Shown here: positions 12,108 to 64,000 of the stretch, one piece after another | How the letters are laid out: each line of letters begins with the position of its first letter | Numbering within the stretch: the stretch's first letter is position 1 | From: Xanthomonas sp. SI | GTDB lineage: Bacteria > Pseudomonadota > Gammaproteobacteria > Xanthomonadales > Xanthomonadaceae | Direction of reading: 5' to 3' | NCBI RefSeq assembly: GCF_014236855.1 | Contig: NZ_CP051261.1 | Span: 1,674,001 to 1,738,000, forward strand | Length of the DNA: 64,000 nucleotides | Notes under the pieces: generated by a model | What the model was told of the DNA's origin: nothing | Database searches by the model: none | What the model saw: the letters and a program-made list of their open reading frames with translations, nothing else | Program-made: the position numbers and the translations under genes

Positions 12108-12134
12108 GCGCCGTCAGCGAAGAGATCAACGACT

Positions 12135-17585: not shown

Positions 17586-17591
17586 GTTGAG

Positions 17592-18038
17592 ATGAAGCTA
17601 GATTTTACGGCCGACTACGACTGGGAGGCGCGGATTGATAGGATCAAAAGTCACTACGCGCGCAATGCTGATGATTTTACCCATCGATCTTACGGCAGTG
17701 AGGTGGCCACAGTGTCTCTACTTTTCATGTGCCGCGATCCGTCCATAAAATTTAAACGAAGAGTTCGGTTTTTTTCTAAAAGCGCGGAGTTTTATACCGA
17801 CGTCATGTTGGATCTGCCAACCATCGTCCCGCTTTCGATGAAGGAGAAAATGCACTACGTTTCCTGTGAGCTTCTTCAGCAGCTGTCAGAACAGTTGAAC
17901 AAACGTAAGTTCAAGGACTTTGATCATGCTCGGTTTCTCAACGATCTAGAGAAATGGCTCGAGGGAATTGAAGAGCGCTATGACGGCCAGACGTCGGGAC
18001 CTTGGCGTTATGCGTCGGGCGAAGAGGTTGAGCAATGA
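17592..18038 (+). CDS. putative immunity protein for the Rhs toxin
   Basis: A 148-residue protein of unknown family; ATG six bases after the Rhs stop. It has no signal or membrane segment, so it is cytosolic. A charged, mixed alpha/beta composition (MKLDFTADYDWEARIDRI..., a C-terminal helix WLEGIEERYDGQ) and lower GC than the core genes are typical of polymorphic immunity genes. Its position directly after the toxin tip is the main evidence. The downstream CPCC gene overlaps its stop by 4 nt (ATGA), so the two are translationally coupled. Confidence 0.65.
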   Translation: MKLDFTADYDWEARIDRIKSHYARNADDFTHRSYGSEVATVSLLFMCRDPSIKFKRRVRFFSKSAEFYTDVMLDLPTIVPLSMKEKMHYVSCELLQQLSEQLNKRKFKDFDHARFLNDLEKWLEGIEERYDGQTSGPWRYASGEEVEQ

Positions 18039-20510: not shown

Positions 20511-22973
20511 GTGTTGAAGCAATACCCGTTAACGTTGCGATTCGTGTTGTTCATCGTTGTTCCATTGCTGGCGCTGGCCGCCTGGGGAATCTCGCACCTC
20601 AGTTCCAGCCTGCCGCAGCAGGACGGTACGCTTGCCGTCACCGGACTGCGCGCGCCCGTGGAGATCCATCGCGACTCCGCGGGTGTTCCGAGCATCGTCG
20701 CAAGCAACGACCGCGACGCTTTTTTCGCCCTCGGCTATGCGCATGCGCAGGACCGCATGTGGCAGCTCGAGCTGCAACGACGCATCGCCAGCGGCCGCTT
20801 GAGCGAAGTCTTCGGCAAGGACAGCATCGATCAAGACATCTGGTTCCGGACGTTGGGGCTGCAAAGCTCGGCGCGCGAGGCGTGGAAGGCGTTGAGTCCG
20901 CAGGCGCGCGATTCGCTGCAGGCCTATGCGGACGGGGTCAACGCCTGGCTCGCGGGACATCCGAGCTTGCCGCTGGAGTTCTCTGCGATGGCGATCAAGC
21001 CCGAGCCCTGGTCGGTGTACGACTCGCTGGCCTGGATCAAGGTGTTCGCGCTCAATCTTGGCGGCAACTATCGCCAGGAAGTCGAGCACATGCTGGCGCG
21101 GCAGATGCTCGACCCGCACAAGTTCGCCGCGTTGTACCCGAATCTCCACGCGGAACCACCTATACCGGCGCCGCTCGCGGCCGCCTCGGTCGGCATGTCG
21201 CTGCAACGCATGGCGGATTTCCAAGAGAAACTGGAGCGCGATTTCGGCCTCGGCGGACGCTACGTAGGCAGCAATGCCTGGGCCGTGTCCGGTCACCTCA
21301 CCGGCAACGGTGCGGCGATGCTGGCGAACGATCCGCACCTGGGCCTGCAGATACCCTCGCTCTGGTACATGGCGGCGATCAAGGGCGACCGCATCGATGC
21401 GCGCGGTGCGACCATCGTCGGCTTGCCGGTGGTGATCTTCGGCCGCAACCAGCACATCGCCTGGGGCGGCACCAATTCCATGGCGGACGTGCAGGACCTG
21501 TACTTCGAGGAGGCCGATCCTGACGACGCGAACCGCTATCGTACCGAGAACGGGTGGGAAGGCTTCAAGAGCACGACCGAGCTGATCGCCGTCCGCCAGG
21601 ATTTTCCCGCCTTGCTCAGCCCCAAGCTGCGGCCGCTGCGCATCCAGGTCCGCAGCACGCGTCACGGCCCGGTGGTGAGCGATCTGTTCAAGGTGTTCGA
21701 TGCGCCGGTGTCGATGCGGTGGACCGCGCTGGACACGGACGATACCTCCTACGAAGCGTTCTATCGGCTCAATTACGCAGAGGACTGGAGCGGCTTCCGC
21801 CACGCGCTGGCACCGTTGGTCGCGCCGGCGCTGAACCTGCTCTATGCCGACGATACCGGCAACATCGGGATGCTCACCGCCGGACGCATTCCGATCCGCA
21901 CGGCCGGTGGCGGCGACGTGCCCGTCTCCGGCTGGGACGGAGGCCATGCATGGCGTGGCTACATCGCCCCGGAGGCGATGCCGAGCCGCTATAACCCGCC
22001 CAGTGGCGTGCTGGTGTCGGCGAACGAAAAATTCTTCGACTCCGATTACCCCTATCCAATCAATGGCGAATGGGCGCCGCCGGACCGCGCGCGCAGGATC
22101 GAGCACCTGCTTCTGGCCCTGAAGGACAAAGGCGGCGCGTTGACGCCACAGGCCATGGGCCGCATCCAGACCGACACGGTAAGCGAGCCGGCGCGGCGCC
22201 TGCTGGCGCGCATGCTGCGCCTGCAGCCTTCCAACGACCAGCAACGCAGGGCATTCGCGCTCCTGCGGACGTGGAACGGCGACATGTCGCGCGACAGCCG
22301 CGCGGCCAGCATCTTCAATGCGTGGGTGCAAACCCTCCGCCGCGAGTTGATGGCCGACGAGCTGGGCGGCAGCTGGAACCGGGAAACCCAGAACCGCTAC
22401 GTCAAGAGCGTGGCGGGCGACGTCGACCTGGACACCCTGGGCGCGATGCTGGTGGACGGGCCGGACAGCTGGTGCCAGAACCTCGATACACCGGAACCCG
22501 ATACCTGCGACGAGGTGCTCGACAGCTCGCTCAACGACGCCCTTTGGGAGCTTCTGAAGATGACCGGCGATTCATCCATGGACGATTGGGCGTGGGGCAA
22601 GTTACACGCCACGGTCTACAAGCACACGCCTTTCAGTAGCATCAACGTGCTGCGCAGCGTCTTCGAGCGCAGCATCGCCAGCGGCGGTTCGCCGGATACG
22701 GTCAACGTGGCGTCCTATCGCTACGATCGCGCAGGACGCTTCACTCAGGATTTCGGCGCCGGTTTCCGTCAGGTCATGGCGTTGGGCGGGAAGGGCGGCG
22801 CGCACCTGTACATAAACTCGACGGGCCAGTCGGGAAATGTCGTCAGTGCCCACTACGACGACATGGTCGAGCCCTTCCGCGACGGGGTGCTGCGCGCCTG
22901 GCCGTCCGCCTCCGCCGGCCAGGCGCTGCGCCTGACGCCGGCCTCCCCCGGCCACGTCCAGGATCCACGATGA
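20511..22973 (+). CDS. penicillin acylase/PvdQ-family Ntn hydrolase of the NRPS cluster
   Basis: An 820-residue precursor, normal for the family. GTG at 20511 follows GGGGAAAA and gives a short Lys start plus a hydrophobic export signal (LRFVLFIVVPLLALAAWGI), so it acts in the periplasm. HRDSAGVPSIVASN and GYAHAQDRMWQLELQRR are alpha-subunit motifs. Autocleavage is expected before Ser254 in GSNAWAVSG, which becomes the N-terminal nucleophile. NDPHLGLQIPSLWY, STRHGPVVSD and the C-terminal GQSGNVVSAHYDDM support the assignment. Its last 4 nt overlap the transporter start (ATGA), and the NRPS genes follow. By analogy with PvdQ in pyoverdine maturation, it probably removes a fatty acyl group from the exported peptide. 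A quorum-signal acylase is the alternative, but the operon position favours peptide maturation. Confidence 0.85.
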   Translation: MLKQYPLTLRFVLFIVVPLLALAAWGISHLSSSLPQQDGTLAVTGLRAPVEIHRDSAGVPSIVASNDRDAFFALGYAHAQDRMWQLELQRRIASGRLSEVFGKDSIDQDIWFRTLGLQSSAREAWKALSPQARDSLQAYADGVNAWLAGHPSLPLEFSAMAIKPEPWSVYDSLAWIKVFALNLGGNYRQEVEHMLARQMLDPHKFAALYPNLHAEPPIPAPLAAASVGMSLQRMADFQEKLERDFGLGGRYVGSNAWAVSGHLTGNGAAMLANDPHLGLQIPSLWYMAAIKGDRIDARGATIVGLPVVIFGRNQHIAWGGTNSMADVQDLYFEEADPDDANRYRTENGWEGFKSTTELIAVRQDFPALLSPKLRPLRIQVRSTRHGPVVSDLFKVFDAPVSMRWTALDTDDTSYEAFYRLNYAEDWSGFRHALAPLVAPALNLLYADDTGNIGMLTAGRIPIRTAGGGDVPVSGWDGGHAWRGYIAPEAMPSRYNPPSGVLVSANEKFFDSDYPYPINGEWAPPDRARRIEHLLLALKDKGGALTPQAMGRIQTDTVSEPARRLLARMLRLQPSNDQQRRAFALLRTWNGDMSRDSRAASIFNAWVQTLRRELMADELGGSWNRETQNRYVKSVAGDVDLDTLGAMLVDGPDSWCQNLDTPEPDTCDEVLDSSLNDALWELLKMTGDSSMDDWAWGKLHATVYKHTPFSSINVLRSVFERSIASGGSPDTVNVASYRYDRAGRFTQDFGAGFRQVMALGGKGGAHLYINSTGQSGNVVSAHYDDMVEPFRDGVLRAWPSASAGQALRLTPASPGHVQDPR

Positions 22974-24673: not shown

Positions 24674-24692
24674 GGAAAGACAGGACAGTCTC

Positions 24693-27600
24693 ATGATGAG
24701 AGCCGCATTCGCCGAATTTCCGCTGACGCTCGCGCAGTCGGATATCTATCTGGACCAGCAACGGTTCCCGGCCGACCCGATCTACAACATCGGCGGCTAC
24801 ATCCGGATGCAGGAAATCGACCTGGCGCGGCTGCGCGATGCGCACCGCAGGCTCGTGCTCGACAACGAGGCGTTCGGCCTGCGCATGCGCGCTGGCCGCG
24901 ACGGCGTGGTGCAGTACGTCTCGGCGCAGCGAAACGCGGAACTGCCGGAGTTCGATTTTTCCGCGTTCGCCGATCCTGAGGCCGAGGCGCGGGCGTGGAT
25001 GCAGGAGCGCTTCCAGCACGCGTTCGATTTGCACGACAGCGAGCTCTACCTCGCCTGCGTGTTGCGGGTTTCTTCGCGGCAGCACTGGTACTGCGTGATC
25101 GCGCACCACTTGATGATCGACGGTTGGGGCTACGCCAATCTGGCTCATTGCCTGGCGGGCCACTACCGCGGCGAGAGCCAGGCGCCGTCGCTGCAATGGC
25201 GCGAAGTGGCGAACGATGACCAGGAGTATGTGGCCGGCGCACGCTACGTTGCGGACCGGGACTATTGGGCGGCACGCATCGGTGCGGTACCCGATCCGTT
25301 GCTGCCGCCATACCATCGCCGGCGTTTTGCCGTCGAACGCGCGACGCCGAGCGGACGCGAGACCACGGTTGTGCCGCTTGCGGACTACGCGCGGCTGGCG
25401 GATCTGGCCGCGCATTATCGGGTTGGGTTGCCGCAATTGCTGCTCGGCGCGTTCGCGTTGTGCGTATCACGCCTGGCCGACAGCGAGGAGGCGGTCATCG
25501 GCCTGCCGGTGCACAATCGTCGCGGCCACGCGCAGAAGCGAGCCATCGGCGTGTTCACCGGGATGCTTCCCCTAGCGTTGCACCTGCCGAACGACACCAC
25601 TTTCGCCGCGCTGTTGCAGACGCTCGCGGAGCGGCAGCGCAGCGACTACCGGCGCCAGCGCTATCCGATCGGCCACCTCGGCCGCGACCTGGGCATCGCC
25701 GGCAGCGGTCGTAGCCTGTTCGACGCCAGTTTCAACTACCTCAAGCTCGACAGCCGCTTCGAGGTCGCCGGACGAACCGCGGAGATCTACTACCTCAGCC
25801 ATGGCTATAGCCAGGCGCCGTTGGCGCTCACGGTATGGGAGTACGGCCATTCGCAACCGGTCGAGTTCCATTTCGACCACAACCTAGCGTACCTGGACGC
25901 GGTGGAGGCGCGCATGTTCGCGGCGCGGTTCCACGCGGTGCTGCGGCAGCTGCTCGAGACGCCCGGGATCGCCCTGGACGACATCGTGGCGATGACCGAA
26001 GGCGAGGCGACGCGCTGCGCGGGTCTGGCACTCGGCCCACCCGCGAGCGTCGCCGGCTTCGCCTATGCGCACCAACTCTTCCAGGACTATGCATTGCGCC
26101 GGCCCGAAGCGGTCGCAGTGGTCGACGACCAGCGCAGCGTGTCCTACGGCGAACTCGAGCGTCGTGCCAATCGCCTGGCGCGCACGTTGCGCGACTATGG
26201 CGTGCGCCCGGACGACCGTGTCGCGCTTTGCGGCGAACGCGACTGGACCTTGATGCTCGGCGTGCTGGGCATTCTCAAGGCGGGCGGCGCCTACCTGCCG
26301 ATTGATCCGTCGCAGCCGGATGCGCGCATCGCCGCAATACTGGCGGACGCGATGCCGGTGCTGTGCCTGACCAGTACGGCGCTACGCGAACGGATCGGGG
26401 GTATCTGCGCCAGCCCATTGCTGGCCCTGGATGCGTGGGTCGACGACGCGATGCAGGAGGCGGACGAGGGGCTGGATCCCGACGCAATCGGTCTGGACCC
26501 CGGACATCTGGCCTATGTCATCTACACCTCCGGTTCGAGTGGAACACCCAAAGGCGTCATGCTGGAGCACGCCAGCCTGGCGCACCTGACCCAGTCCCTG
26601 CGCGACGTGTACGGCCTCGGCGCGGATGATCGCGTGCTGCAGTTCTCGTCGATCGCTTTCGACGCCGCGACCTGGGACTGGGCGCGCGCGTTCGCCGCAG
26701 GGGCGACGTTGTACATCTGTCCGGAGGACGCGCGCAGTTCCGGCGAAGGCCTGGGCCGCTACCTTCTGCAACACGGCATCACCCATGCCTTGATCCCGCC
26801 TGCCGCGTTGGCCCATCTGGACACCGCGCCCGGCTATGCGCTGCGTTCGTTGATCATTGGCGGCGACGTGTGCGATGCACGGCTGGCGGATGCTTGGACG
26901 CGCAAGTGCCGGCTGTTCAACGCCTACGGCCCGACAGAAGCGACGGTGGTGGTCAGCCAGGCGGAATTGACCCCGGGGACACAGGTGACGATCGGTTCGG
27001 CACTGCCGGGCTATGCGTTGCAGGTGGTCGATCGCGCCGGTCGGCTCGCGGCGATCGGCGCGCCGGGCGAGCTGTGGATCGCCGGTCCGGGCCTGGCGCG
27101 GGGCTACCTCGGGCGTGCGGACCTCACCGCCGCGCGCTTTGGCGAGGGCCGCGGCGCATTGGCCGGGCAACGCTGGTATCGCAGCGGCGACCGCGTCCGT
27201 CGCAACGCCGACGGCGCGCTCGAATTTCTTGGGCGTGTCGACGCACAGGTCAAGATCCGCGGGTTTCGTATCGAGCCGGGCGAGGTCGAGTCCGCCTTGC
27301 ATCGCTGCGAGCAGCTGGCGTCCGCGTTCGTCGGTGCGGTGGGCGAGGGCGCGGGCAAGCGCCTAGTCGCCTGGATCGTCGCTGCGGCGGACAACGCCTT
27401 GGACGATGCGGCGCTGTTTGCGGCGCTGCGTACGACCCTGCGGCGCGATCTGCCCGAGTACATGATCCCGACGGCTTGGGTGAGGCTGGAACGGATGCCC
27501 CTGAATACCAGCGGCAAGGTCGACCGGAGGGCGCTCCCCATGCCTCCCGCCGTCGACGCCGACGTGGAAAATACGCCCGACACCGAAACCGAGCGGCGCA

Positions 27601-30600
27601 TCGAAAGGTTGTGGTGCGAAGTACTGGGAATCCCGCGCGCGGATGTCGATCGCGATTTCTTCGCGCTCGGCGGTCATTCGTTGCTGGCTGCGCGTCTGGC
27701 GGTGGCGCTCAGCGAGGAGTTCGGCCGCAGTTGCGCGCTGCGCGACGTGTTCGAGCACCGCAGCATTCGCCAGCAGGCGCTTCACCTGGAGCACGCCGCA
27801 GCGGCATCCGCGGCGATTGTGCCCGCGCCTGCCGGGACGCCGCTGCCGCTGTCGTTCCAGCAGCGGCGCCTGTGGCTGACCGATCGCATCGAGGGAGCCG
27901 GCGCGCATTACAACATTCCGGCGGCCATGCGCTTACTGGGCGAGCTGGACCGGGGCGCGCTGGCCGCGGCCCTGCAGGCCGTCGCCCAGCATCATGCGGT
28001 ACTGCGCACGGTCTACGCCGAGCATGACGGCGAGCCCGTCCAGACGATCCTGCCGCGGGCCATCGTGCCGCGTATCGTCGATGCTTCCACCACCCCGGAA
28101 CACGCACGCCACGCTACGTCCCTCGCGTACTGGCGAACCGAGGCGTCAACCCCCTTCGATCTGGCCGCGGACCTGCCGCTGCGCGTGGTATTGGTGGCGT
28201 TCGCGCCACGCGACCACACGCTGTTGCTGACCCTCCATCACATCGCCGCCGATGGCTGGTCGATCGAGATCCTGGTGCGCGAACTTGGAGCTGCATATGC
28301 GGCGGCAATGCGCTGCGAAGATCCGCGCACGGCCTTGCTCGCTCCGAGCGTGCAGTACGCCGACTATGCCGTCTGGCAACGGCGCACGCTCACCGATGAG
28401 GCGCTGGCGGCGTCGCTGGATTTCTGGAGCGGAGCCTTGCATGGCGCGCCGCCATTGCATGCGCTGCCGCTGGATCGGCTGCGGGCGCCGCAGCCCGACG
28501 CGTTCGGCCATCATTTCGTCACTCCTATCGCACCATCCGCCGCGGCAGCGTTGCGTGGACTGGCGCAGGCGCACGATGCCACCGTGTTTATGGCGCTGCG
28601 CGCGGCGCTGGCGGCGTTGCTGTGGCGATGGAGCGGAGAGACCGACCTGATGGTCGGCGTGCCCGTCGCCGGTCGCGACCGGCCCGAGGTCGCGCCGCTG
28701 ATCGGCTTCTTCGTCAACACCTTGGCGCTGCGCAGCGACGTCTCCGGCGACCCCACCTTCACCGAATTGCTGGTGCGCAGCAGAGAGGAGGTACTGTCCG
28801 CGTTCGCGCACCAGCTGTTGCCGTTCGATCACTTGGTTCACGCGCTGGCGCCGGCTCGGGTTCCCGGAGCCGCGCCGCTGTACCAGATCATGCTGTCGTT
28901 CGGCGCCGAGCCGCTTCCGGCGCTCGAACTCTCCGGTGTGGACGTACTGCGGTACGGGGGCGACGCACAGCTGATCCCGTTGAACGTCGATCTGGATGTC
29001 GCGGTCGAACGTGACGGAGACAGCTATGCGGTCCGTTGGCATTACCGGGCCGATTTGTTCGATGCGGCCAGCGTGGAGCGATTGGCCTGCGCTTTTCATC
29101 GGTTGCTGGAGGCCGCCGTGGCGAGTCCGCAGCAGCGGATCGGCGCGTTGCCGCTGCTTGGCGTCGGCGATGCCGCCGTGCTCGATGCCTGGGAAGGAAC
29201 CGGCTGCGCCGCCGCCGACAGTTGGGCGCACGAGCGCATCGCCGCGCAGGCCATGCGTGCCGGCACGCATCCCGCGCTGGTCGATGGCGGTGTCGCGCTC
29301 GACTACGCCACGCTGGACGCCCAGGCCAACCGCCTAGCCCAGTGGCTGCGGGCGCGCGGTATTGGCGAGGGCGCCTGCATCGGCGTGTGCCTGGCGCGCG
29401 GCTGGCGCCAGCCGCTGGCGGCGCTGGCGGTCCTGAAGGCGGGGGCGGCCTATGTGCCGCTGGATCCGGTGACTCCGCAGGCACGCCTGCGCGATGCGGT
29501 CGTGGATGCCGGCATCGCGGTGGTGCTGAGCACGTCCGATCTGGCGGCGGAACTCGACCTCGGCGCCGTGGAAATGGCACTGCTCGATGCGCCGGGGATC
29601 GCGGCTGAACTGGAGGCGATGCCGGCGCAAGCGCCGCCGCTCGTCGTCACCGCTGCGACGCCGGCCTACGTGATCTTCACCTCCGGCTCCAGCGGCCGTC
29701 CCAAGGGCGTGGTCGTCGGCCATGGGGCGCTCGCCGCGTATCTGGACGGATTGCAGACACAGTGCAACGTCGGGCCCGCGGACAGGTTGCTGCAGTTCGC
29801 CTCGTTCGGTTTCGACGTCTATGTCGAAGAGTGCTTCATGGCCTTGTGCCATGGCGCGACCCTGGTGCTGCGCGACGAGGAGACGCTCGCCGACGGCGAG
29901 CGCTTCTGCTCCTGGGTGATGCGCCACCGCATCAGCGTGCTGAACCTGCCGACCGCGTTCTGGCACACGTTGGTGGAGACGCTGTCGCCCGAGGTCGCGC
30001 GCATGGCCGCGGACGTGCGCCTGTGCATGATCGGCGGCGAGGCGGCGCAGCCGGGCAAGATCCTTCGCTGGAACGCGCTCATGCCGCCCACGCTGCGGCT
30101 CCTGAATGGATATGGCCCTACCGAGGCGACGGTGACCGCCACGGTGGCGGACCTGGCGGACTTCGATGCGGCCAGCGCAGCGGTGCCGATCGGGCGGCCG
30201 TTGCCGCACGTGCGCTGCCGGGTGCTGGGAACGGCGCGCGAACGGGTACCGGTCGGCGTGGCCGGCGAGCTGTATCTGGGGGGCGCCAGCCTGGCGCTCG
30301 GCTACTTGCGGCAAGAGGCGCTCACCGCCGAACGCTTCGTGCAGTTGGACGGCGAGCGTTGGTACCGCAGCGGGGACCGGGTGCGCTGGCGCAACGACGG
30401 GCAGCTGGAGTTCCTGGGGCGGCTGGACGACCAGGTGAAGCTGCGCGGGTTCCGGATCGAGCTCGGCGAAATCCGCCTTCGTCTCGAAGCCCAGGCCGGC
30501 GTCGCGTCCGCGTTCGTGCAGGTGCTCGACTGCGGCGGCGAGCCTCGCCTGGCGGCTTGGGTGGTTCCCACCGCTCCGGTCGCCGACATCGCCTCGTTCG

Positions 30601-46808: not shown

Positions 46809-46809
46809 T

Positions 46810-55800: not shown

Positions 55801-58014
55801 CAGCGCCTGTCGGGATTACCGGCGGGCGTGGCCTTGTTCGACAGCCTGTTGGTGTTCGAGAACCTCGCGATCGATGCCGGCGCCGAAGCCGAGGCGATGG
55901 GGGCGGCGCTGCAGCTGGAGTTCGCCGCAAGCCAACGCCGCACGCAGTACGCGATGACCCTGATCGTCACGCTGGACGAGCGCCTGCGCGTGCGGATGGG
56001 CTATCGCGCCGATCAGCTCGACGATGCCGTCGTCGCGCGCATGGCGCAGCATTTTGCGGCGGTGCTGGCCGCGCTGCCGGCGCTGGCGGAGGATCGTGCG
56101 GCGGCGCCGGTGCTGCTGGATGCACAGGAGCAACGTCGCCTGGCGGCTTGGCAGGCGCCCGTGCGCGCCTATGCGCAGGAGGCAACCATCCACGGCCTGT
56201 TCGAAGCCTGCGTCGACCGCCATCCCGACGCCGTCGCCCTGGTTCATGGCGAGCAGCGCATGCGCTACGGAGAGCTGGAGCATCACGCGAACCGTCTGGC
56301 ACAGCATTTGCTGTCGCGTGGGATCGGACGCGACCAGGCGGTGGCCCTGCTGGTCGAGCGCAGCCCCTGCTACGTGATCGGCTTGCTCGGCATCCTGAAG
56401 GCAGGGGCCGCCTATCTGCCGATCGATGCCGAAGCGCCGGCCGAGCGCATCGCGGCGATGCTGCGCGTCAGCGACGTGCGGTGTGTGCTGGCGATGCGAA
56501 CACTGGCGGACAAGGTCGCGCACCGCGGCATCGACGTGGTGTTGCTGGACGATGCGCCTGCGCTTGCTGCGCAGTCCGAGGCGCGCCCGGACGTCGCCGC
56601 GCGCATCGACGATCTGGCCTTCGTCATGCACACCTCCGGGTCCACCGGGGTGCCGAAAGGCGTGCAGTTGAGCCATCGCACCATCGTCAACCTGATGACG
56701 TCGCTGGCAGCGCGCCATCCGATGCTGGCCGAACCGGCGCCGAGCCTGCAGTTCGCCGCGATCGGCTTCGACATGTCGCTTTACGAGGTCGCCGGGGCGC
56801 TGTTCAACGGCGGCCCGCTGGTGCTGCTGGAAGAGGACGACCGCCTCGACACGCGTCGCCTGCTGGAGGTGATGCGTCGCGAACGCATCGCGCGCGCCTA
56901 CCTGCCGACCGCGATGATCGACCATTTCGCGCAGACTGCGCTCGACAGCGGGATCGAGTTGCCCGATCTGAAGTGCCTGCAAGCGGCCGGCGAGCAGTTG
57001 GTGGTGTCGAACGCGCTGCGCACCTGGGCTGCGCGCAGCGGTTGCATGCTGCTCAATCTGTACGGCCCCACCGAGAGCCACGTCGTCAGCGAGCACGCGC
57101 TCGACGGCGATCCCGCTGCCTGGCCGGCGTTGCCGCCCATCGGCGCGCCAATCGACAATGTGGTCCTGCATATCCTGGATGCGGCATCGCAGCCGGCGCC
57201 GATCGGTGTCGTCGGCGAACTCTACATCGGCGGCGATGGCCTGGCGCGCGGCTACGCCGGACGCGCCGACCTGACCGACGAGCGCTTCATCACCGTGCAG
57301 TTCGGCCAGGGTTGCGCTCAACGCCTGTACCGCACCGGCGACCTGGCGCGCTGGCGCACCGACGGCCGGATCGAGTATCTCGGCCGTGCCGATCGCCAGG
57401 TCAAGGTGCGCGGGTTCCGCATCGAGCCTGGCGAAATCGAGGCGCGCCTGTGCGACCACGCCGCTGTATCCAAGGCGTTGGTGACCACGGCCGGCGAGGG
57501 CGCCGATCGCCAGTTGCTGGCCTACGTCGCCGCGGGCGCGGCGGACGAGACGGTGCTGGTGCCCGAATTGCGTGCGCTGCTGCAACGCCATCTTCCGCAT
57601 TTCATGCTGCCTTCGGCGTTCGTGGTGCTGCCCGTACTGCCATTGACGGCCAATGGCAAGGTGGACCGGCGTGCGTTGCCTTTGCCCAAGCGGATCGGTG
57701 CCCTGGCCCGCGTCGAACCCGCGACCGCCACCGAGCGCCGGCTCGCTGCGATCTGGGAGCAATTGCTGGGACAACAATCGATCGGCGCGACGGAGCGCTT
57801 CTTCGATCTGGGCGGCCACTCGCTGTTGGCGATGCGAATGCTGTCGAAGGTCGCCTCAGAGTTCGGCTGCACCCTGAAGATCAAGGATGTATTCGCTTAC
57901 CAGACGGTAGCGCTGCTGGCGCAGCTGATCGATGCCCTGACCGCAGGGCTTGCCGACGCGAATGCAAACGCCCCTGAGCGTGACGACGAAACGCTCGAAG
58001 AAACGGAGTGGTGA
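46810..58014 (+). CDS. NRPS 2: three modules, C-A-T-C-A-T-E-C-A-T
   Basis: About 3,734 residues; ATG one base after the NRPS 1 stop, GGAG 7 nt upstream. Residues 1-60 (TVVQALNELGIFPYVEDGKL ...) are a TubC-like N-terminal docking domain that should receive the chain from NRPS 1. C1 has HHIASDG (208), T1 Ser is 1094, and C2 HHIASDG (1282). T2 has the E-associated form GGDSI (Ser 2147). The epimerisation domain shows HHIVVDGVSW (2334), EGHGRE (2475) and NYLGQFD. C3 (HHIIVDG, 2804) should then be a DCL domain accepting a D-residue. T3 Ser is 3671. Specificity codes: A1 DATKVGEVG (Asn-like), A2 DGFWIASVA (unassigned, epimerised), A3 DMYYQALVV (unassigned). The C-terminus is EETEW, as in NRPS 1. 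NRPS 3 begins 5 nt after the stop. Confidence 0.95.
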   Translation: MTILTVVQALNELGIFPYVEDGKLKTRSDAPISDSGAIALIRAHREELIEFLAGAAEGIRQTTPILPISNRASPAPLSFAQQRLWFIHQLEGGSSQYNININLVLRGALDMDALRRTIDTIVARHETLRTRFIQDTGGDVVQLPAAAGPVPVTLIELGALPEQARWEAVAEQSRAESARSFDLGEPPLLRATVLRVRADEHVVLFVTHHIASDGWSKDVLVEEFCQLYAAFHAGSENPLPELPVQYRDYAAWQRHELSGKALETQLSWWTARLAGLPPVHALPLSWPRPAQQRFHGGMLRVDVPAATARKARAWCATKGMTPFVLMHATFALLLARLGGEDDVAVGTPVSGRVHPDLEHLVGFFINTLVLRTRLDPAQGFGNYVDASKREVLEAFNHQTLPFELLVDAINPERSLSYSPLFQLLFSYHSGTAREIVLPGLEVDSLDQAGNTNQFDMEFNIADDGDGMQLGISYNRTLFETGMIAQLASSFCVLLDAALDMPDCPVADLPLLDEVERSRMLDRNRTDVALAHGGCMHERLSAIAAAHADRPAVVAAEGELDFQALDRAGNRLAHYLVERGVRPGDRVGICLRRSLDLPVALLAVLKAGGAYVPIAPDTPQNRLSHMIEDAGIRLVLTHSELWDALSFGDSDAIPMDVVGPVLDTQSGHAPALAVDADAVAYVLYTSGSTGQPKGVAVPHRALTNYLDYAARHYLGGGVAAGVVATPFAFDATVTTLIAPWCAGLPVCLLDDENETALEQLLEYAARPQPLLFKLTPAHLDALAHLSPGPVADTAHLLVVGGEQLVARVLERFRARVLPNAIVVNEYGPTEATVGCSTFVSRPHDDLSGAEAVPIGCPIQNTRLYVLDAHAQPVPDGVTGELYIGGTGVALGYLNQEALTRASFLADPFAGQGRMYRTGDLVRWRRDGELEFVGRADGQVKLNGFRIEPGEIEAALLAQAAVDNACAVVHADSAGSKRLVAYVVPCGKPPGAEHDESELERWRYQRVRELREAMRRSLPEYMLPAAYVLLEALPLTANGKVDRAALPAPASDDFDKETFTAASTATEAALLDIWRHVLRLEMIGIDDHFFRIGGHSLLATRVVGEIAERLRRRVQVRSMFEYPTVRGLAAHIDAQADVDYRPIEPVAHDGVLPLSYGQQRLWFIDQFSGGSRQYHISSALRLKGPLDRNALQGALDAIVARHEVLRSRFVSASGTASQIVDPPAPVRMHALDLAAAPQDRREARMAAMIAEGAAAPFDLSADPMLRMMLVRMAEDEHVLGLTMHHIASDGWSTGVLIREFTQLYAAFARGERPALPPLAIQYGDFVHWQRRALSREALRTHLEYWKQQLADLPRLHRLPLDRARPPLQDYAGAAVERCIDVELSRALRDLSIQHSVSMFMLLRAAFALLISRWSGEEDVAIASPSAGRTRRELEPLVGFFINSLILRTDLSGNEGFGALLRQVRRSTLDAFAHQVVPFDMLVDELKPERSLNHAPLAQISFTLHNLEDAVLQLPDLEISRVDDGAPVARYDIELHVFEIDGELHTRWVYATSLFDASTIERLADSFTVLLRAVAGDPDQPTMTLPLLPAHDAVALAHWSRPRAEALPQACAQHLFEAHAERAPQALAVAFERQRVRYGELNVVANQVAHWLRAQGVVRGDRIGLCVERSPEMLVGLLGILKAGAAYVPMDPTHPQERLEAMLDAAKVELVLTQQSVLETLPMLGERTVLPLDADLRELLLSAFSGDNPEASEVGAGPDDAAYAIFTSGSTGVPKGVLNTHRGMVNLATYQRREFGLDADSRVMTFASIGFDGAVFEWLMALASGASLHICLEEDRKSPERLAQFLVAERITHGWIPPALLAQVPLDRDYALRVLIVAGEACEERLAWRWAERCRVVNSYGPSEATVAATHADIVPGRPIVLGRALPNVELRVVNGAGQPQPVGVAGELMLGGAGLAIGYLGLPELTAERFLAHPDGDGRLYRTGDLARWNERGELQFLGRVDDQVKIRGFRIELGEVQTHLLAHALVREAVAVVREDTGDPRLAAYVVWADGADSDEEALLARVLREHMKGRVPDYMVPAAFVVLPTIPLTRNGKVDRRRLPRPNYEAQQVYVAPSGDVEIRLAQIWQQVLRVEKIGANDNFFEIGGDSILSIQVVSRANQAGIAVTTKQLFEAQTVAELAKLAATAPAPQVSAPQEPVRGALPLLPIHHLFLGAESRDLHHYNQAVLLMTPQDFADDALAAVVEALYLRHDALRLRFGDETGQWLATHAPLDAAMVADSCIVEALPEAGADFDDHLAARCTHWQRAFDLGAGPLLRAVYFRAHDARPGRLLLVVHHIVVDGVSWRILLSDLDRAYGQRRAGQSIELDAKTSSFKQWGEAMSHYATSQALDAERGFWLRQAALVVPPLPVDRRIDGFGEIASTRTLAVGLDEAQTQALLHRCNAAYRTRINELLLAGVYLGMRAWTGETALRIRLEGHGREPLFDHLNTSSTVGWFTSVYPLTLSVPHDDTGATIKAVKEQCRRISNNGIGYGALRHLARDAELLACDVTEPELEFNYLGQFDHVLNQDTLFQPAAEGVGEKISGRRRRMHQIGLSGKVFGGCLNFVLDYSDAQYDVATMQRLATLIGDGWKRVITHCVQRETAGFTPSDFPLASIGQDRLDGWCARYPLLARLYPATPMQVGLHFESQIDPSTYVVQTALTFRGTLDRHAFRRAWQGVVQRHDILRTAFLDDGEEALHQLVSAQAELPWHEEDWRSLVPHEQETRLEAYRLRDRERGFDFASAPLMRIAVFQLADDCSQVLWTTHHIIVDGWSSPLIQRDVIALYQAAVEGRAAALPEPEPYERYIAWLQRQDVAAARARWRELLGEVEGCTPLAALRQDPDGDAVPREFMLELGQAETAALHRLAQACRVTPNTVVQWAWAYLLHRYSGASQVVFGATISGRRPEVDGIEDMVGLFINTVPVPVAFAPDLALADALNALQRDFQACSDHGYLPLADIQRLSGLPAGVALFDSLLVFENLAIDAGAEAEAMGAALQLEFAASQRRTQYAMTLIVTLDERLRVRMGYRADQLDDAVVARMAQHFAAVLAALPALAEDRAAAPVLLDAQEQRRLAAWQAPVRAYAQEATIHGLFEACVDRHPDAVALVHGEQRMRYGELEHHANRLAQHLLSRGIGRDQAVALLVERSPCYVIGLLGILKAGAAYLPIDAEAPAERIAAMLRVSDVRCVLAMRTLADKVAHRGIDVVLLDDAPALAAQSEARPDVAARIDDLAFVMHTSGSTGVPKGVQLSHRTIVNLMTSLAARHPMLAEPAPSLQFAAIGFDMSLYEVAGALFNGGPLVLLEEDDRLDTRRLLEVMRRERIARAYLPTAMIDHFAQTALDSGIELPDLKCLQAAGEQLVVSNALRTWAARSGCMLLNLYGPTESHVVSEHALDGDPAAWPALPPIGAPIDNVVLHILDAASQPAPIGVVGELYIGGDGLARGYAGRADLTDERFITVQFGQGCAQRLYRTGDLARWRTDGRIEYLGRADRQVKVRGFRIEPGEIEARLCDHAAVSKALVTTAGEGADRQLLAYVAAGAADETVLVPELRALLQRHLPHFMLPSAFVVLPVLPLTANGKVDRRALPLPKRIGALARVEPATATERRLAAIWEQLLGQQSIGATERFFDLGGHSLLAMRMLSKVASEFGCTLKIKDVFAYQTVALLAQLIDALTAGLADANANAPERDDETLEETEW

Positions 58015-58019
58015 CACGG

Positions 58020-61000
58020 ATGGGTATCGCTGAACTGTTGCATCTCTTGCGCACGAACAGGATCGCCATCTCGGCGGCAGGCGGGCGACTCAAGACCGCG
58101 GCGCCGAAGAATGCGATCACCGCCGAGCTCGCAGAATTGATCCGCAGCCACCGGACGCAGCTGCTCGAATTCCTGGAGCGTGCGTCCGAACAGACCGATG
58201 CCCCGGAACGGATCGTTCCGGCGCCGGCCATGCGCGCCTATCCGCTGTCGTTCCCGCAGCAGCGTCTGTGGTTCATCGATCGGCTGCAGGGCGGAAGCGC
58301 GCAGTACAACATTCCGATTGCCTTGCGCATGATCGGGCAGTTGGAGATCGGTGCGCTGCAGTCTGCCCTGGACGGCATCGTGGCCCGCCATGCGGTACTG
58401 CGCACGCGCTTCGAGGAACGCGACGGCGAACCCTTGCAGGTCGTCGATCCGCCGAGCGGGGTAGCGATCGACACACTTGATCTTTCGCTGCTGGACGCCG
58501 AGCAGCGCGAGCGCCGCATCCATGTCTTGGCCGATGAGGAGGTCGACCGCAGTTTCGTTCTCGCAACCGATCCGATGCTGCGTTGCAAGCTGATCCGAGA
58601 GGCGGCCGATCGCCACGTGGTCTTGTTCACCATGCACCACATCGCCAGCGACGGCTGGTCGATGGGCGTGTTGGTGCGCGAGTTCGCTGCGTTGTACTCG
58701 GCATGCCTGGGCGGCGTCGAGAAGGCCTTGCCGCCGCTGCCGATCCAGTATTTCGACTACGCCTACTGGCAACGCCGGGTGCGCGGCGAAGCCGCTTTCG
58801 AGCGGGATCTGGCCTATTGGCAACGCCGGCTGGCCGGTGCGCCGACCCTGCATGCCTTGCCGTTGGACCGACCGCGCCCGATGCAACCCAGCTCCAGCGC
58901 ACAGCGCCTGTCGGTCGGCATCGCGCCCGCCGAGGCGGATGCGCTGCGCGGGTTGGCGCAGCGCTGCGATGCCACGCTGTTCATGGTGTTGCAGACGGCG
59001 CTGGCGTTGCTGATCGCACGCTGGAGCGGAACGTACGACATCGTGATCGGCACGCCGGTGTCCGGGCGCCCGCACCAGGAAGTCGAGCCCTTGATCGGTT
59101 TCTTCATCAATACCATCGCGTGCCGGATCGACGTGTCCGGCGATCCGACGGTGGAAGCGCTGATCGGACGCGTGCGTTCCGAGGTGCTGGAAGATTTCGC
59201 GCATCAGCAGTTGCCTTTCGATCTGCTCATCGACGCGCTCAGGCCCGAACGCAGCCTGGCCTACAACCCGATCTGCCAGATCAAGTTCGTGTTGCAGAAC
59301 CACGAATCCACAACCCTCTCCTTGCCTGGATTGACGCTCGAGCCGGTGGCGCGCGGAGTGGAACGGGTGCGCTTCGATCTGGACCTGACCGTCGCCGAAT
59401 CTGCCGAAGGACTGCACCTGAGCTGGACCTGGAAAGAGGCACTGTTCGAGCGAAGCAGCGTCGAACGCATGGCGCACGCGTACGGGCATGTCTTGCGGCA
59501 GATCGTCGAGCGCCCGCAAGCGCTGCTGTCGGCGCTGTGCTGGCAGGACGCAGCGGCGCAGGCGCAGTTGCTGACGCAGGGTCGCGGCCCGCACAGCGAG
59601 GGCGGCCGCGAACAGCCGTTGATCCGGCAACTGCAGGCGCAGGCACAGGCGACACCGGAGGCGGTGGCGGTGCGCTGCGGAGCGGCGCAGATGACCTATC
59701 GCGAGCTGGACCGGGCGTCCAACCGGCTGGCGCAGGCCTTGGCCGAGCAGGGGGTGGGGCTGGGCGCGCGGGTGGGGGTGGCGCTGGAACGGTCGTTGCC
59801 GCTGCTGGTGGCGCTGCTGGGCGTGATGAAGAGCGGTGCGGCGTATGTGCCGGTGGATGCGCAGCAGGCGCCGGCGCGGGTGCAGGCGATCCTGGAGGAT
59901 GCCGAGGTGGCGCTGGTGCTGGGAACGGGGGCGGCGTTGGCCGGCACGTCGGTCCAGGTCCTGGCCATGGACGGGGCCGCGGAGGCCTCGTGGCTGTCGG
60001 CGTACCCGGACGCGGCACCGGCGGTGGCGCTGGAGGCCACGCACAGCGCGTACGTGCTGTACACCTCCGGTTCGACCGGGGTGCCCAAGGGCGTGGAGGT
60101 GCTGCAGCGCGGGCTGACCGACTACTGCGCCTTCGCGCGAGGGAACTACTACGCCGAGCATCTGGCCGGTGCGCTGGTGGCGACCTCGCCGGCGTTCGAC
60201 CTGACGGTGCCGAGCTTGTACGTGCCGTTGCTGGCGGGCGGGTGCGTGACGCTGCTGGCGGAGGCGGACGCCATGGCGGGCCTGGCGGCGGCGTTGGAAG
60301 CGGCGTCGGCGCCGGGGTGGTTGCTGCGCCTGACGCCCTCGCACGTGCAGGGGCTGCTGGCGTTGTCGGATGCGCAGCCGCGGCCGGGGGCGCATGTGTT
60401 CGTGGTGGGCGGGGAGGCGTTCGCGGCGGAGTTGGCGCAGGCGCTGCGGGCGAAGTACCCGCAGGCGCAGGTGTACAACCACTACGGTCCGACCGAGGCG
60501 GTGGTGGGGAGCAGCTGGTATGCGGTAGACGGCCAGGCGCCGTGCAGCGGGATGCTGCCGATCGGCCGGGCGATGGAGAACACGACGCTGTACGTGCTGG
60601 ACGCGCGGATGGGGCTGCAGCCGGCGGGGGTGGCGGGGGAGCTGTACATCGGTGGGTGGGGGGTGGCGAAGGGCTATGTGAAGCGGGAGGCGTTGACGGC
60701 CGAGCGGTTCGTGGCCAGTCCGTTCGTGGCGGGGGAGCGGTTGTACCGCAGCGGGGACCGGGTGCGCTGGCGCAACGACGGGCAGCTGGAGTTCCTGGGG
60801 CGTCTGGACGACCAGGTGAAGCTGCGCGGGTTCCGGATCGAGCTGGGGGAGATCGAGAGCCGGCTGCATGCCGAGGGTTCGGTACGCGAGGCGGTGGTGG
60901 TGGTGCGCGGGGAGGGGGTGCAGGCGCGGCTGGTGGCGTACGTGACGCCGGCCGCTGGAGAGGCGGCGGAGGCGTGGATCGACGAGCTGCAGGCGGCGCT

Positions 61001-64000
61001 GGCGTCGTCCCTGCCGGGCTACATGCAGCCGTCGGCGTACGTGGTGCTGGAGGCGCTGCCGCTGACGGTGAACGGGAAGGTGGACAAGGGCGCGCTGCCG
61101 GAGCCGGTGCACGCGCGCGGGGAGGAGGAGGAAGCGCCGTCGACCGAGACCGAACGGGCGCTGGCGCAGATCTGGAGCGGCATCCTCGGGCACGCGGACA
61201 TCGGCGTCACCGCCAACTTCTTCGCACTGGGCGGTCACTCGCTGCTGGCCACGCGGATCGTGAGCGAGATCGGGCGAGCGCTGGGCAAGCAGGTGCCGGT
61301 GCGGGCGCTGTTCGAGCAGCCGACGCTGCGGGGCTTGGCGCAGTACGTGGAGCGTCAGGCGCGCAGCGACTATGCGCCGATCCCGAAGGTGCCGCGCGTG
61401 GATGCACTGCCGTTGTCGTTCGCGCAGCAGCGGCTGTGGTTCATCGACCGTCTGGAGGGCGGCAGCACGCAGTACAACATGCCGGTGGCGCTGCGGCTGC
61501 GCGGCGGGCTGTCGGTGGCGGCGCTGGGCCAGGCGCTGGCGGGGTTGCTGGCGCGGCACGAGGTGCTGCGCACGGTGTACCGGGAGGTGGACGGCACGCC
61601 GTGGCAGGTGATCCAGGCGCAGGCGCAGGCGCAGGTGCCGTTGGCGCACGAGGACCTGAGCGCGTTGCCGGCGGAGGCGCAGGACGCGGCGGTGCAGGCC
61701 TGGGTGCAGCGGGAGGCGGGTCAGGGGTTCGACCTGGCGCACGAGCCGATGCTGCGGTGCCGGGTGCTGCGGCTGGAGGCCGAGGAGCACGCGGTGCTGT
61801 TCACGCTGCACCACATTGCCAGCGACGGCTGGTCGATGGGAGTGCTGGTGCGCGAGTTCGTGGCGCTGTATGCGGGTGCGCTGCGCGGGGAGGCGGCGGC
61901 GCTGGCGCCGCTGCCGGTGCAGTACGCGGACTATGCGGCGTGGCAGCGGGAGCGGTTGCAGGGGGCGTCGCTGGAGGCGGCGCTGGGGTACTGGCGGGAG
62001 CGGTTGCAGGGCCTGCCGGCGGTGCACGGGCTGCCGCTGGACCGGCCGCGCCCGGCGCGGCAGGACTTTGCCGGCGGGCGGATCGAGCAGGGGATCGCAG
62101 CGGCGACGCTGGCGGGCCTGCAGGCGCTGGCGCAGCGGCACGATGCGAGCCTGTTCATGGTGCTGGAGGCGGCGCTGGCATGGTTGCTGGCCCGCTGGAG
62201 CGGGGAACGGGACATCGTCATCGGCACGCCGATCGCCGGGCGGGTGCACCCGGACGTGGAGCCGCTGATCGGGTTCTTCGTGAACACGCTGGTGCTGCGC
62301 ACGCAGCTGAGCGGGGAGGAGACGTTCGAGGGGCTGCTGGAGACGACGCGGGAGCGGGTGCTGGAGGCGTACACGCACCAGGAGATCCCGTTCGAGATGC
62401 TGGTGGACGAGCTCAAGCCGGTGCGCAGCCTGAGCCATGCGCCGTTGTTCCAGGTGTTGCTGTCGATGCGCAACACCGAGCAGGTGGCCTTGACGCTGCC
62501 GGGGCTGGAAGTGTCCTCGCTGGGCGAGGGGTATGAGCAGGCGAAGTTCGACCTGCAGCTGGCGGTGCAGGAGACGGGGGAGGGACTGCGGTTGGTCTGG
62601 GGCTATGCGACGCGCCTGTTCGAGGCGGCGAGCATCGACCGGCTGGCGCAGGCGTATGCGCAATTGCTGGCGCAGATCGTCGTGCAGCCGGACGCGCCGT
62701 TGGCCGCCCTTTGCTGGCAGGACGCAGCGGCGCAGGCGCAGTTGCTGGCGCAGGGCCGTGGCCCGCACAGCGAGCGCGGCCGCGAACAGCCGTTGATCCG
62801 GCAACTGCAGGCGCAGGCACAGGCGACACCGGAGGCGGTGGCGGTACGCTGCGGGGCGGCGCAGTTGACCTATCGCGAGCTGGACCGGGCGTCCAACCGG
62901 CTGGCGCAGGCGCTGGCCGAGCAGGGCGTGGGGCTGGGCGCGCGGGTGGGGGTGGCGCTGGAACGGTCGTTGCCGCTGCTGGTGGCGCTGCTGGGCGTGA
63001 TGAAGAGCGGTGCGGCGTATGTGCCGGTGGATGCGCAGCAGGCGCCGGCGCGGGTGCAGGCGATCCTGGAGGATGCCGAGGTGGCGCTGGTGCTGGGAAC
63101 GGGGGCGGCGTTGGCCGGCACGTCGGTCCAGGTCCTGGCCATGGACGGGGCCGCGGAGGCCTCGTGGCTGTCGGCGTACCCGGACGCGGCACCGGCGGTG
63201 GCGCTGGAGGCCACGCACAGCGCGTACGTGCTGTACACCTCCGGTTCGACCGGGGTGCCCAAGGGCGTGGAGGTGCTGCAGCGCGGGCTGACCGACTACT
63301 GCGCCTTCGCGCGAGGGAACTACTACGCCGAGCATCTGGCCGGTGCGCTGGTGGCGACCTCGCCGGCGTTCGACCTGACGGTGCCGAGCTTGTACGTGCC
63401 GTTGCTGGCGGGCGGGTGCGTGACGCTGCTGGCGGAGGCGGACGCCATGGCGGGCCTGGCGGCGGCGTTGGAAGCGGCGTCGGCGCCGGGGTGGTTGCTG
63501 CGCCTGACGCCCTCGCACGTGCAGGGGCTGCTGGCGTTGTCGGATGCGCAGCCGCGGCCGGGGGCGCATGTGTTCGTGGTGGGCGGGGAGGCGTTCGCGG
63601 CGGAGTTGGCGCAGGCGCTGCGGGCGAAGTACCCGCAGGCGCAGGTGTACAACCACTACGGTCCGACCGAGGCGGTGGTGGGGAGCAGCTGGTATGCGGT
63701 AGACGGCCAGGCGCCGTGCAGCGGGATGCTGCCGATCGGCCGGGCGATGGAGAACACGACGCTGTACGTGCTGGACGCGCGGATGGGGCTGCAGCCGGCG
63801 GGGGTGGCGGGGGAGCTGTACATCGGTGGGTGGGGGGTGGCGAAGGGCTATGTGAAGCGGGAGGCGTTGACGGCCGAGCGGTTCGTGGCCAGTCCGTTCG
63901 TGGCGGGGGAGCGGTTGTACCGCAGCGGGGACCGGGTGCGCTGGCGCAACGACGGGCAGCTGGAGTTCCTGGGGCGTCTGGACGACCAGGTGAAGCTGCG
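58020..64000 (+). CDS. NRPS 3: at least two modules, C-A-T-C-A..., cut by window end
   Basis: The frame is open to the window edge (1,993 residues visible). ATG at 58020, with GGAG inside the end of NRPS 2. Residues 1-60 (IAELLHLLRTNRIAISAAGG) form a TubC-like docking domain. C1 starts near PLSFPQQRLW (76) with HHIASDG at 206. The A1 TSGSTG is at about 682, T1 Ser 1074, C2 HHIASDG 1264, A2 TSGSTG about 1740, and the window ends just after the A8 motif. Both A domains carry the code DLPRVGHVG (Asp-like), the same as modules 5 and 7 of NRPS 1. From 59571 onward the DNA looks nearly identical to parts of NRPS 1. C1 (58230-59560) is the only clearly distinct part. A terminal thioesterase is expected downstream. 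Confidence 0.93.
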   Translation, partial: MGIAELLHLLRTNRIAISAAGGRLKTAAPKNAITAELAELIRSHRTQLLEFLERASEQTDAPERIVPAPAMRAYPLSFPQQRLWFIDRLQGGSAQYNIPIALRMIGQLEIGALQSALDGIVARHAVLRTRFEERDGEPLQVVDPPSGVAIDTLDLSLLDAEQRERRIHVLADEEVDRSFVLATDPMLRCKLIREAADRHVVLFTMHHIASDGWSMGVLVREFAALYSACLGGVEKALPPLPIQYFDYAYWQRRVRGEAAFERDLAYWQRRLAGAPTLHALPLDRPRPMQPSSSAQRLSVGIAPAEADALRGLAQRCDATLFMVLQTALALLIARWSGTYDIVIGTPVSGRPHQEVEPLIGFFINTIACRIDVSGDPTVEALIGRVRSEVLEDFAHQQLPFDLLIDALRPERSLAYNPICQIKFVLQNHESTTLSLPGLTLEPVARGVERVRFDLDLTVAESAEGLHLSWTWKEALFERSSVERMAHAYGHVLRQIVERPQALLSALCWQDAAAQAQLLTQGRGPHSEGGREQPLIRQLQAQAQATPEAVAVRCGAAQMTYRELDRASNRLAQALAEQGVGLGARVGVALERSLPLLVALLGVMKSGAAYVPVDAQQAPARVQAILEDAEVALVLGTGAALAGTSVQVLAMDGAAEASWLSAYPDAAPAVALEATHSAYVLYTSGSTGVPKGVEVLQRGLTDYCAFARGNYYAEHLAGALVATSPAFDLTVPSLYVPLLAGGCVTLLAEADAMAGLAAALEAASAPGWLLRLTPSHVQGLLALSDAQPRPGAHVFVVGGEAFAAELAQALRAKYPQAQVYNHYGPTEAVVGSSWYAVDGQAPCSGMLPIGRAMENTTLYVLDARMGLQPAGVAGELYIGGWGVAKGYVKREALTAERFVASPFVAGERLYRSGDRVRWRNDGQLEFLGRLDDQVKLRGFRIELGEIESRLHAEGSVREAVVVVRGEGVQARLVAYVTPAAGEAAEAWIDELQAALASSLPGYMQPSAYVVLEALPLTVNGKVDKGALPEPVHARGEEEEAPSTETERALAQIWSGILGHADIGVTANFFALGGHSLLATRIVSEIGRALGKQVPVRALFEQPTLRGLAQYVERQARSDYAPIPKVPRVDALPLSFAQQRLWFIDRLEGGSTQYNMPVALRLRGGLSVAALGQALAGLLARHEVLRTVYREVDGTPWQVIQAQAQAQVPLAHEDLSALPAEAQDAAVQAWVQREAGQGFDLAHEPMLRCRVLRLEAEEHAVLFTLHHIASDGWSMGVLVREFVALYAGALRGEAAALAPLPVQYADYAAWQRERLQGASLEAALGYWRERLQGLPAVHGLPLDRPRPARQDFAGGRIEQGIAAATLAGLQALAQRHDASLFMVLEAALAWLLARWSGERDIVIGTPIAGRVHPDVEPLIGFFVNTLVLRTQLSGEETFEGLLETTRERVLEAYTHQEIPFEMLVDELKPVRSLSHAPLFQVLLSMRNTEQVALTLPGLEVSSLGEGYEQAKFDLQLAVQETGEGLRLVWGYATRLFEAASIDRLAQAYAQLLAQIVVQPDAPLAALCWQDAAAQAQLLAQGRGPHSERGREQPLIRQLQAQAQATPEAVAVRCGAAQLTYRELDRASNRLAQALAEQGVGLGARVGVALERSLPLLVALLGVMKSGAAYVPVDAQQAPARVQAILEDAEVALVLGTGAALAGTSVQVLAMDGAAEASWLSAYPDAAPAVALEATHSAYVLYTSGSTGVPKGVEVLQRGLTDYCAFARGNYYAEHLAGALVATSPAFDLTVPSLYVPLLAGGCVTLLAEADAMAGLAAALEAASAPGWLLRLTPSHVQGLLALSDAQPRPGAHVFVVGGEAFAAELAQALRAKYPQAQVYNHYGPTEAVVGSSWYAVDGQAPCSGMLPIGRAMENTTLYVLDARMGLQPAGVAGELYIGGWGVAKGYVKREALTAERFVASPFVAGERLYRSGDRVRWRNDGQLEFLGRLDDQVKL
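59571..62703 (+). repeat. 3.1-kb near-identical direct repeat, copy 2
   Basis: NRPS 3 A1, T1 and C2. Partner of 38640-41772 in NRPS 1. Confidence 0.85.
60744..64000 (+). repeat. over 3.2-kb near-identical direct repeat, copy 2
   Basis: NRPS 3 T1, C2 and A2, cut by the window end. Partner of 42957-46213 in NRPS 1. Confidence 0.85.

Follow-up and report, generated by a model that had tools for sequence, protein, structure and literature searches.

An acylase-exporter gene pair beside acyl-primed peptide synthetases of Xanthomonas and its relatives: a candidate system for export-coupled deacylation

We analysed a stretch of 64,000 nucleotides from Xanthomonas sp. SI (contig NZ_CP051261.1; hereafter the window), corresponding to bases 1674001-1738000 of a genome that consists of a single contig of 5.25 Mb. 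In this window, the gene for an N-terminal nucleophile (Ntn) acylase is followed by genes for an ATP-binding cassette (ABC) exporter and for very large nonribosomal peptide synthetases (NRPSs). Findings discussed below suggest that the product of this cluster is probably deacylated in the course of its export, in a manner resembling the actions of PvdE and PvdQ, but with an acylase from a different branch and outside of pyoverdine synthesis. A preliminary description of the window, made from its letters alone, had proposed an acylated prodrug that is exported and then deacylated. Acyl priming is borne out at the level of sequence, and export-coupled deacylation is backed indirectly, because the acylase and exporter genes are conserved as a pair beside acyl-primed assembly lines; we consider the mechanism proposed there to be probably right.

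The acylase and its pairing with a PvdE-family exporter

The acylase matched the penicillin amidase family (Pfam PF01804, S45 Ntn hydrolases) with 735 bits, compared to a cut-off of 21.3. Residues Ser254, His276 and Asn505 were invariant in an alignment of 32 sequences that included that of the window, and many solved beta chains aligned from their residue 1 with Ser254, confirming the Ntn acylase that the preliminary description had recognized from Ser254 in the motif GSNAWAVSG. The accompanying label of PvdQ-like, however, holds only in a wide sense. The nearest solved relatives were a D-succinylase (249 bits) and penicillin/cephalosporin acylases, with PvdQ far lower at 64.5 bits, and the NCBIfam PvdQ equivalog (NF051460) gave 93.4 bits against a cut-off of 950, ruling out that the enzyme is PvdQ. 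Four related acylases scored 67-89 bits on the same model, and the second penicillin amidase family member of the genome, at 35 bits, was no closer to PvdQ.

Hydropathy revealed an N-terminal hydrophobic helix in 23 of the 24 exporter-paired acylases, that of the window included. A basic residue precedes the helix in 18 of the 24, and an acidic one in none. The sole exception (L107) starts late; rows begin at match ends, and some N-termini may be short. Because this helix is found in the paired acylases, we suggest that the acylase is anchored in the membrane and faces the periplasm.

The partner ABC protein scored 393.7 bits on TIGR01194 (cyclic peptide export ABC transporter; cut-off 286.2), in agreement with its earlier assignment to the PvdE/SyrD type, and the described overlap of its gene with that of the acylase, by ATGA at 22970-22973, was read directly. 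All 5 partner ABC proteins scanned passed the same cut-off; that of L036 fits PRK10522 better.

We searched a sample of 297 family genomes for the acylase at an E-value threshold of 1e-60. Matches were found in 28, comprising the genome itself, 19 strong matches (44-58% identity) and 8 weak ones (32-35%). In each of the 19 other strong-match genomes, an exporter (47-66% identity) adjoined the acylase. With the window and four marine loci included, all 24 pairs lay on the same strand, with 0-152 bases between match ends. Acylase distances correlated with exporter distances (Spearman 0.87; 0 of 5000 permutations; 23 pairs, one near-copy dropped). A second set, from a scan of named genomes, comprised 128 relatives, of which 80 were kept; it overlaps with the family set by one, since L006 and L113 (G240) are the same contig. 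The acylase tree was built from 49 chosen rows (the 24 pairs, for which L113 was taken; L125; the second acylase of the genome; and 23 of the 80 kept relatives), and in it a branch with support 99/98 set the 24 exporter-paired rows apart. Relatives of the acylase occur in marine genomes, and none of 368 other genomes of the class matched at a strict E-value of 1e-120, with the two best first-look candidates per genome scored; the branch seems rare outside the family.

These results bear on the possibility that the acylase mainly cleaves N-acylhomoserine lactones or some other small amide, its position in the cluster being incidental. PvdQ itself has both activities (PMC6206403). The acylase of the window nevertheless lies within a branch whose members are all paired with an exporter, and 68 of the 73 kept relatives lacking the exporter had no condensation (C), adenylation (A) or fatty-acyl-AMP ligase (FAAL) domain in their flanks, many of which were short. 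We regard an incidental position as very improbable.

Two loci from Pseudomonas, in which the exporter arrangement is more distant, fall elsewhere in the acylase tree. At L033 and L036 (Pseudomonas defluvii and P. akapageensis), an acylase, two ABC matches, a type II thioesterase, a TauD-like enzyme and a FAAL-NRPS occur together, and the acylases lie on a separate branch of the tree. Wider-family acylases are also encoded in or near NRPS domains at L040 and L045 (Myxococcaceae) and L044 (Blastocatellia), with no PvdE-type exporter in the flank; these may reflect a distinct role for acylases in NRPS pathways.

Acyl priming beside the pair

The first domain of NRPS 1 is a C domain, C1, in which the HHLMIDG motif is intact, as had been noted. 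With PDB chains as the only characterised starter C references, its closest solved structure was 7c1k (126.5 bits), the starter C domain of rhizomide synthesis, which we take to be that of RzmA (7C1S of the same group is named in PMC10587159). In contrast, the C domain of module 2, used as a control, had teixobactin Txo2 as its best match (279 bits) and scored only 49 bits against the rhizomide C domain, in line with the earlier claim of a starter C domain. The C-domain tree contained starter, elongation (LCL), post-epimerization (DCL) and epimerization (E) groups, and a DCL domain followed every E domain. C1 clustered, with support 100/100, with C domains that immediately follow the exporter at four further loci, and apart from the LCL, DCL and E groups. 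Acyl priming by C1 is well supported by these comparisons.

We then turn to the assembly lines neighbouring the pair elsewhere. Up to ~20 kb per side, shorter at contig ends, was scanned with C and A profiles built from the window and a FAAL profile built from G134, G271, G101 and G293. Of the 19 loci, 17 had NRPS or FAAL domains in their flanks, and the remaining 2 are on contigs of 9,890 and 9,996 bases. A FAAL gene was found in 8 (G134, G205, G271, G006, G101, G240, G293 and G157), of which 4 were independent of the FAAL profile. Three FAALs were scanned further, two from these loci and that of L010: PvdL-like and fatty-acyl-AMP-ligase models ranked best, at scores below the curated cut-offs. 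One FAAL compared with the PDB matched solved FAALs. In G141 and G159, as well as in two Pseudoalteromonas luteoviolacea loci, a starter C domain like that of the window lies shortly behind the exporter. In G261, a genome of the same genus (L124, L148, L154-L156), the pair instead sits at the 3' end of an NRPS of more than 60 kb. Here, a further ~80 kb was read to test the expectation of a starter C domain, and the C domain found furthest upstream proved to be of the starter type (268 bits, versus 58 for the nearest elongation type). Priming was thus by FAAL in 8 of the 19 loci, by starter C domain in 3 (G141, G159 and G261) and suggested in 3, while 5 were not reached to their start. No locus starting without an acyl-type C domain was seen among the 19, whose starts were reached in part.

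The second set gave a similar association. FAAL or C domains were present in the flank of all 7 kept relatives with an exporter (L006 being the G240 contig), versus C or A domains near 5 and FAAL near none of the 73 without one (Fisher p 2.5e-7, a guide only, as rows share ancestry and many flanks are short). In two of the eight weak-match genomes (G033 and G214, one fetched stretch each), no C, A or FAAL domains were found. Because the neighbouring assembly lines differ, with FAAL in eight and a starter C domain in three, what the pair accompanies seems to be acyl priming and not any single product, and these differing neighbours suggest that the pair may move between clusters.

Several observations weigh against export-coupled deacylation by such a pair. 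Both the pairing and the distance correlation stem in part from shared ancestry. For the C-domain tree, the program issued a warning that the E and starter branches, both long, join each other; the blastp scores are independent of that tree. The assembly lines of G252, G019 and G160 open with a C domain of the type that follows a FAAL, yet the stretches fetched contained no FAAL, while for G125, G115, G273, G137 and G241 those stretches stop short of the start of the assembly line. Lastly, the 5 exporter-less relatives with C or A domains nearby place the acylase family near NRPSs elsewhere.

Deacylation at the periplasmic face might alternatively serve self-protection, such that the active secreted product keeps its acyl tail and the acylase inactivates molecules that return, as proposed for the glidonin acylase GdnD. 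Acylated glidonins inhibit their producer and deacylation detoxifies them (PMC10587159), and a protective enzyme would predict the same gene neighbourhood as seen here. The acylase gene of the window nevertheless overlaps that of the exporter, and relatives keep this pairing beside different assembly lines, whereas the glidonin acylase gene lies far from its cluster. An enzyme positioned at the exporter would meet the whole flux of product, which favors, without proving, a role in maturation. We consider self-protection unlikely, albeit the strongest of the alternatives to maturation during export.

The assembly line and its product

Once sequence beyond the window is included, the three NRPS genes originally described become four. 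These genes extend 23 kb past the end of the window, and the whole cluster ends at ~95.5 kb in window coordinates (Table 1). The acylase start was set at the GTG at 20511, which is preceded by a plausible ribosome site, since this is where the alignment with relatives begins; a second in-frame candidate, an ATG, is found upstream at 20139. The ATG of NRPS 1 lies within 20 bases of the exporter gene.

Table 1. Features of the cluster, in window coordinates; positions beyond 64000 are in extended window coordinates.
Feature	Position	Strand	Description and basis
Acylase	20511..22973	+	820 aa from GTG; PF01804; Ser254, His276, Asn505; hydrophobic helix ~residues 9-27
PvdE/SyrD-family ABC exporter	22970..24673	+	567 aa; TIGR01194
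NRPS 1	24693..46808	+	7 modules; first domain a starter-type C domain with HHLMIDG; motifs, C-domain tree
NRPS 2	46810..58014	+	3 modules, one epimerization domain after residue 9; motifs, tree; start inferred from translation
NRPS 3	58008..64000 (window end), on to 73784	+	4 modules, two E domains; motifs
NRPS 4	73781-87466		4 modules and terminal thioesterase (TE); motifs, open reading frames (ORFs)
MacA-type (HlyD/MacA) adaptor	87601-88848		Pfam
ABC ATPase	88861-89568		Pfam
MacB/ADOP-type permease	89577-91991		Pfam
TauD/SyrP-like dioxygenase	92100-93098		Pfam
Type II thioesterase	about 93143-93862		Pfam
CmlA-type diiron beta-hydroxylase	93937-95544		PF18456 (CmlA_N) 273.9 bits; PF12706 (metallo-beta-lactamase) 38.5 bits
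Near-identical module pair	38633-41774 / 59564-62705
Near-identical module pair	42945-46619 / 60732-64409

Motif reading of the four proteins gave a total of 18 modules, three E domains and a terminal TE. This supersedes the bound of at least 12 residues given in the preliminary description. The count of 18 should be taken with some care, because module stretches of NRPS 1 and NRPS 3 are nearly identical (99.1-99.9% DNA identity over 3.1-3.7 kb), which suggests that modules were recently copied or underwent gene conversion. A search of the whole genome for the Condensation family returned 21 domains (18 C and 3 E). Since all of them fall within the cluster, it is the sole NRPS locus found in the genome. 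Two matches to the phosphopantetheinyl transferase family were present in the genome, and MbtH gave zero matches across it at an E-value of 0.001.

Specificity codes of the A domains were read at motif positions based on PheA numbering, with some modules completed by eye, and code types were assigned for modules other than 1, 2, 4, 9, 10, 16 and 17. Five modules, corresponding to residues 5, 7, 11, 12 and 15, share one code, which presumably resembles that for Asp, although this reading, made from code tables, is weak. By the same tables, we take the remaining codes to be of Val/Ile, Glu, Asn, Ser and Thr types, an assignment that is suggestive only. Behind NRPS 4, the protein assigned to the CmlA type carries both a CmlA_N and a metallo-beta-lactamase domain. 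A gene for an enzyme of this type (57-63% identity to that of the window) also lies a few kb from the pair at L119, L120 and L121 (G115, G137 and G241) and at L010 (Exilibacterium).

The shared Asp-like code and the presence of a TauD-family enzyme raise the question of whether the product is a new kind of siderophore that matures like pyoverdine and binds iron through beta-hydroxyaspartate. Such a product would be compatible with export-coupled deacylation, as the idea concerns only the nature of the peptide. None of the 73 TonB receptor matches in the genome lies in the cluster, however; the closest one on the acylase side is ~40 kb ahead of that gene. There is no ornithine-hydroxylase match nearby: the lysine/ornithine oxygenase model PF13434 gave two weak matches in the genome (29.3 and 20.6 bits, flagged over a 21.3-bit cut-off), both more than 450 kb away, and the model is unspecific, as it also matches in 12 of 14 control genomes. 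MbtH, as noted above, is absent from the genome. We therefore view a siderophore as improbable. The combination of hydroxyornithine gene, TonB receptor and MbtH that would denote a pyoverdine cluster was not found in this one, and a Pfam scan of the six non-NRPS genes behind NRPS 4 found no PvdP or PvdO chromophore genes, although no dedicated search for them was made. The earlier statements that hydroxy-ornithine and TonB-receptor genes are lacking from the cluster, and that the product is probably not a pyoverdine, fit the TonB, PF13434 and MbtH searches.

Elsewhere in the window, a region with a G+C content below that of the NRPS genes (positions 6420-18038) encodes two RHS-repeat proteins of very large size. 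One of them contains TIG and PPC domains, and a 148-aa ORF that has no Pfam match lies behind the two genes.

A proposed maturation cassette and its relation to known systems

We propose that the four NRPS proteins would build a peptide of 18 residues, with the starter C domain adding an N-acyl group to the first. As judged from its family, the PvdE/SyrD-type ABC protein would carry this acyl-peptide over the inner membrane. There, the acylase, presumably tethered to the inner membrane by its N-terminal helix, would act on the periplasmic side to hydrolyse the N-terminal amide and free the fatty acid, a role suggested by its family and gene neighbourhood. The mature peptide, probably with beta-hydroxylated residues, may then exit via the MacAB-type pump; PvdRT is likewise MacAB-like. 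The acyl group would serve as a temporary tag for both synthesis and transport, and/or as a mask, as in pyoverdine. Acylase and exporter together would constitute a two-gene maturation cassette that is reused with different acyl-primed assembly lines.

Pyoverdine maturation provides the closest order of events: PvdE, which 'most likely' exports acylated ferribactin, is followed by PvdQ and then by PvdRT-OpmQ (PMC6206403). Both systems feature an acyl-primed NRPS product, a PvdE-family exporter, a periplasmic Ntn acylase and a second-stage pump, here of MacAB type. In contrast to pyoverdine, the acylase of the window belongs to another branch (93 versus 950 bits) and is seemingly membrane-anchored, priming is by a starter C domain, and the 18-module NRPS is accompanied by beta-hydroxylases, with no pyoverdine genes found.

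Deacylation of other peptide classes has precedents. Glidonins, which are not siderophores, are deacylated by the PvdQ-like acylase GdnD in a reaction read as detoxification (PMC10587159). They resemble the system described here in having a starter C domain and a non-siderophore lipopeptide that is deacylated by a PvdQ-like Ntn acylase; they differ in that GdnD is 68% similar to PvdQ and is encoded ~1 Mb from the cluster, with no paired exporter mentioned in the portion of the text available (PMC10587159). In telomycin synthesis, the acylase Tem25 is encoded within its own non-siderophore peptide cluster (PMC10587159), a placement shared by the acylase of the window. The suggestion in the preliminary description that export-coupled deacylation of a different peptide class would be new was consequently overstated, glidonin deacylation having been published and Tem25 mentioned in the same report.

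The META-B cluster of Xanthomonas (PMC3849588) likewise combines a large acyl-primed NRPS, an ABC exporter and StaM/SyrP-like hydroxylases. Unlike the present cluster, it has MbtH, AraC and Dpg genes; in the portion of that text available, neither acylase nor penicillin is mentioned. Membership in META-B, weighed on account of similar hydroxylases and size, was dropped, as the genome lacks MbtH; neither Dpg genes nor an AraC regulator occurred among the genes scanned with Pfam, although no dedicated search was made. Colibactin, xenocoumacin and didemnin also derive from acyl-capped precursors that are trimmed at or after export, but the trimming enzymes ClbP, XcnG and DidK, which are peptidases or a CAAX-type hydrolase, take off a cap made of an acyl-amino-acid or acyl-polyglutamine (PMC10811503), whereas here an acylase of the penicillin amidase type would remove the acyl group. 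A survey of Lysobacter genomes reported NRPS clusters, as yet uncharacterised, with as many as 17 modules, and the portion of its text available does not contain the word acylase (PMC11451712). We recognised no description of the acylase-exporter pair in the open-licence PMC literature, among the matches listed.

The features that look new are the branch to which the acylase belongs, the association of this enzyme with a PvdE-family exporter, and the repeated occurrence of the two together in Xanthomonadaceae and some marine Gammaproteobacteria. Of these, the strongest is that the pair recurs with differently primed and differently built assembly lines. Our confidence is evenly divided on the broader proposal that an anchored, non-PvdQ acylase and a PvdE-family exporter form a portable two-gene module, which would serve generally to export and deacylate the large acyl-primed nonribosomal peptides of these bacteria; the tail would then be a reusable transport tag, and many predicted 'lipopeptides' of the family would be secreted tail-free. 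Were this so, predictions of products would be systematically wrong for those acyl-primed NRPS clusters in which the pair occurs, as the compound released would be a free peptide rather than a lipopeptide. One cassette acting on many peptides would likewise provide natural comparisons with which to address a question raised for pyoverdine (PMC6206403), namely why a peptide should be acylated at all, only to be deacylated after transport.

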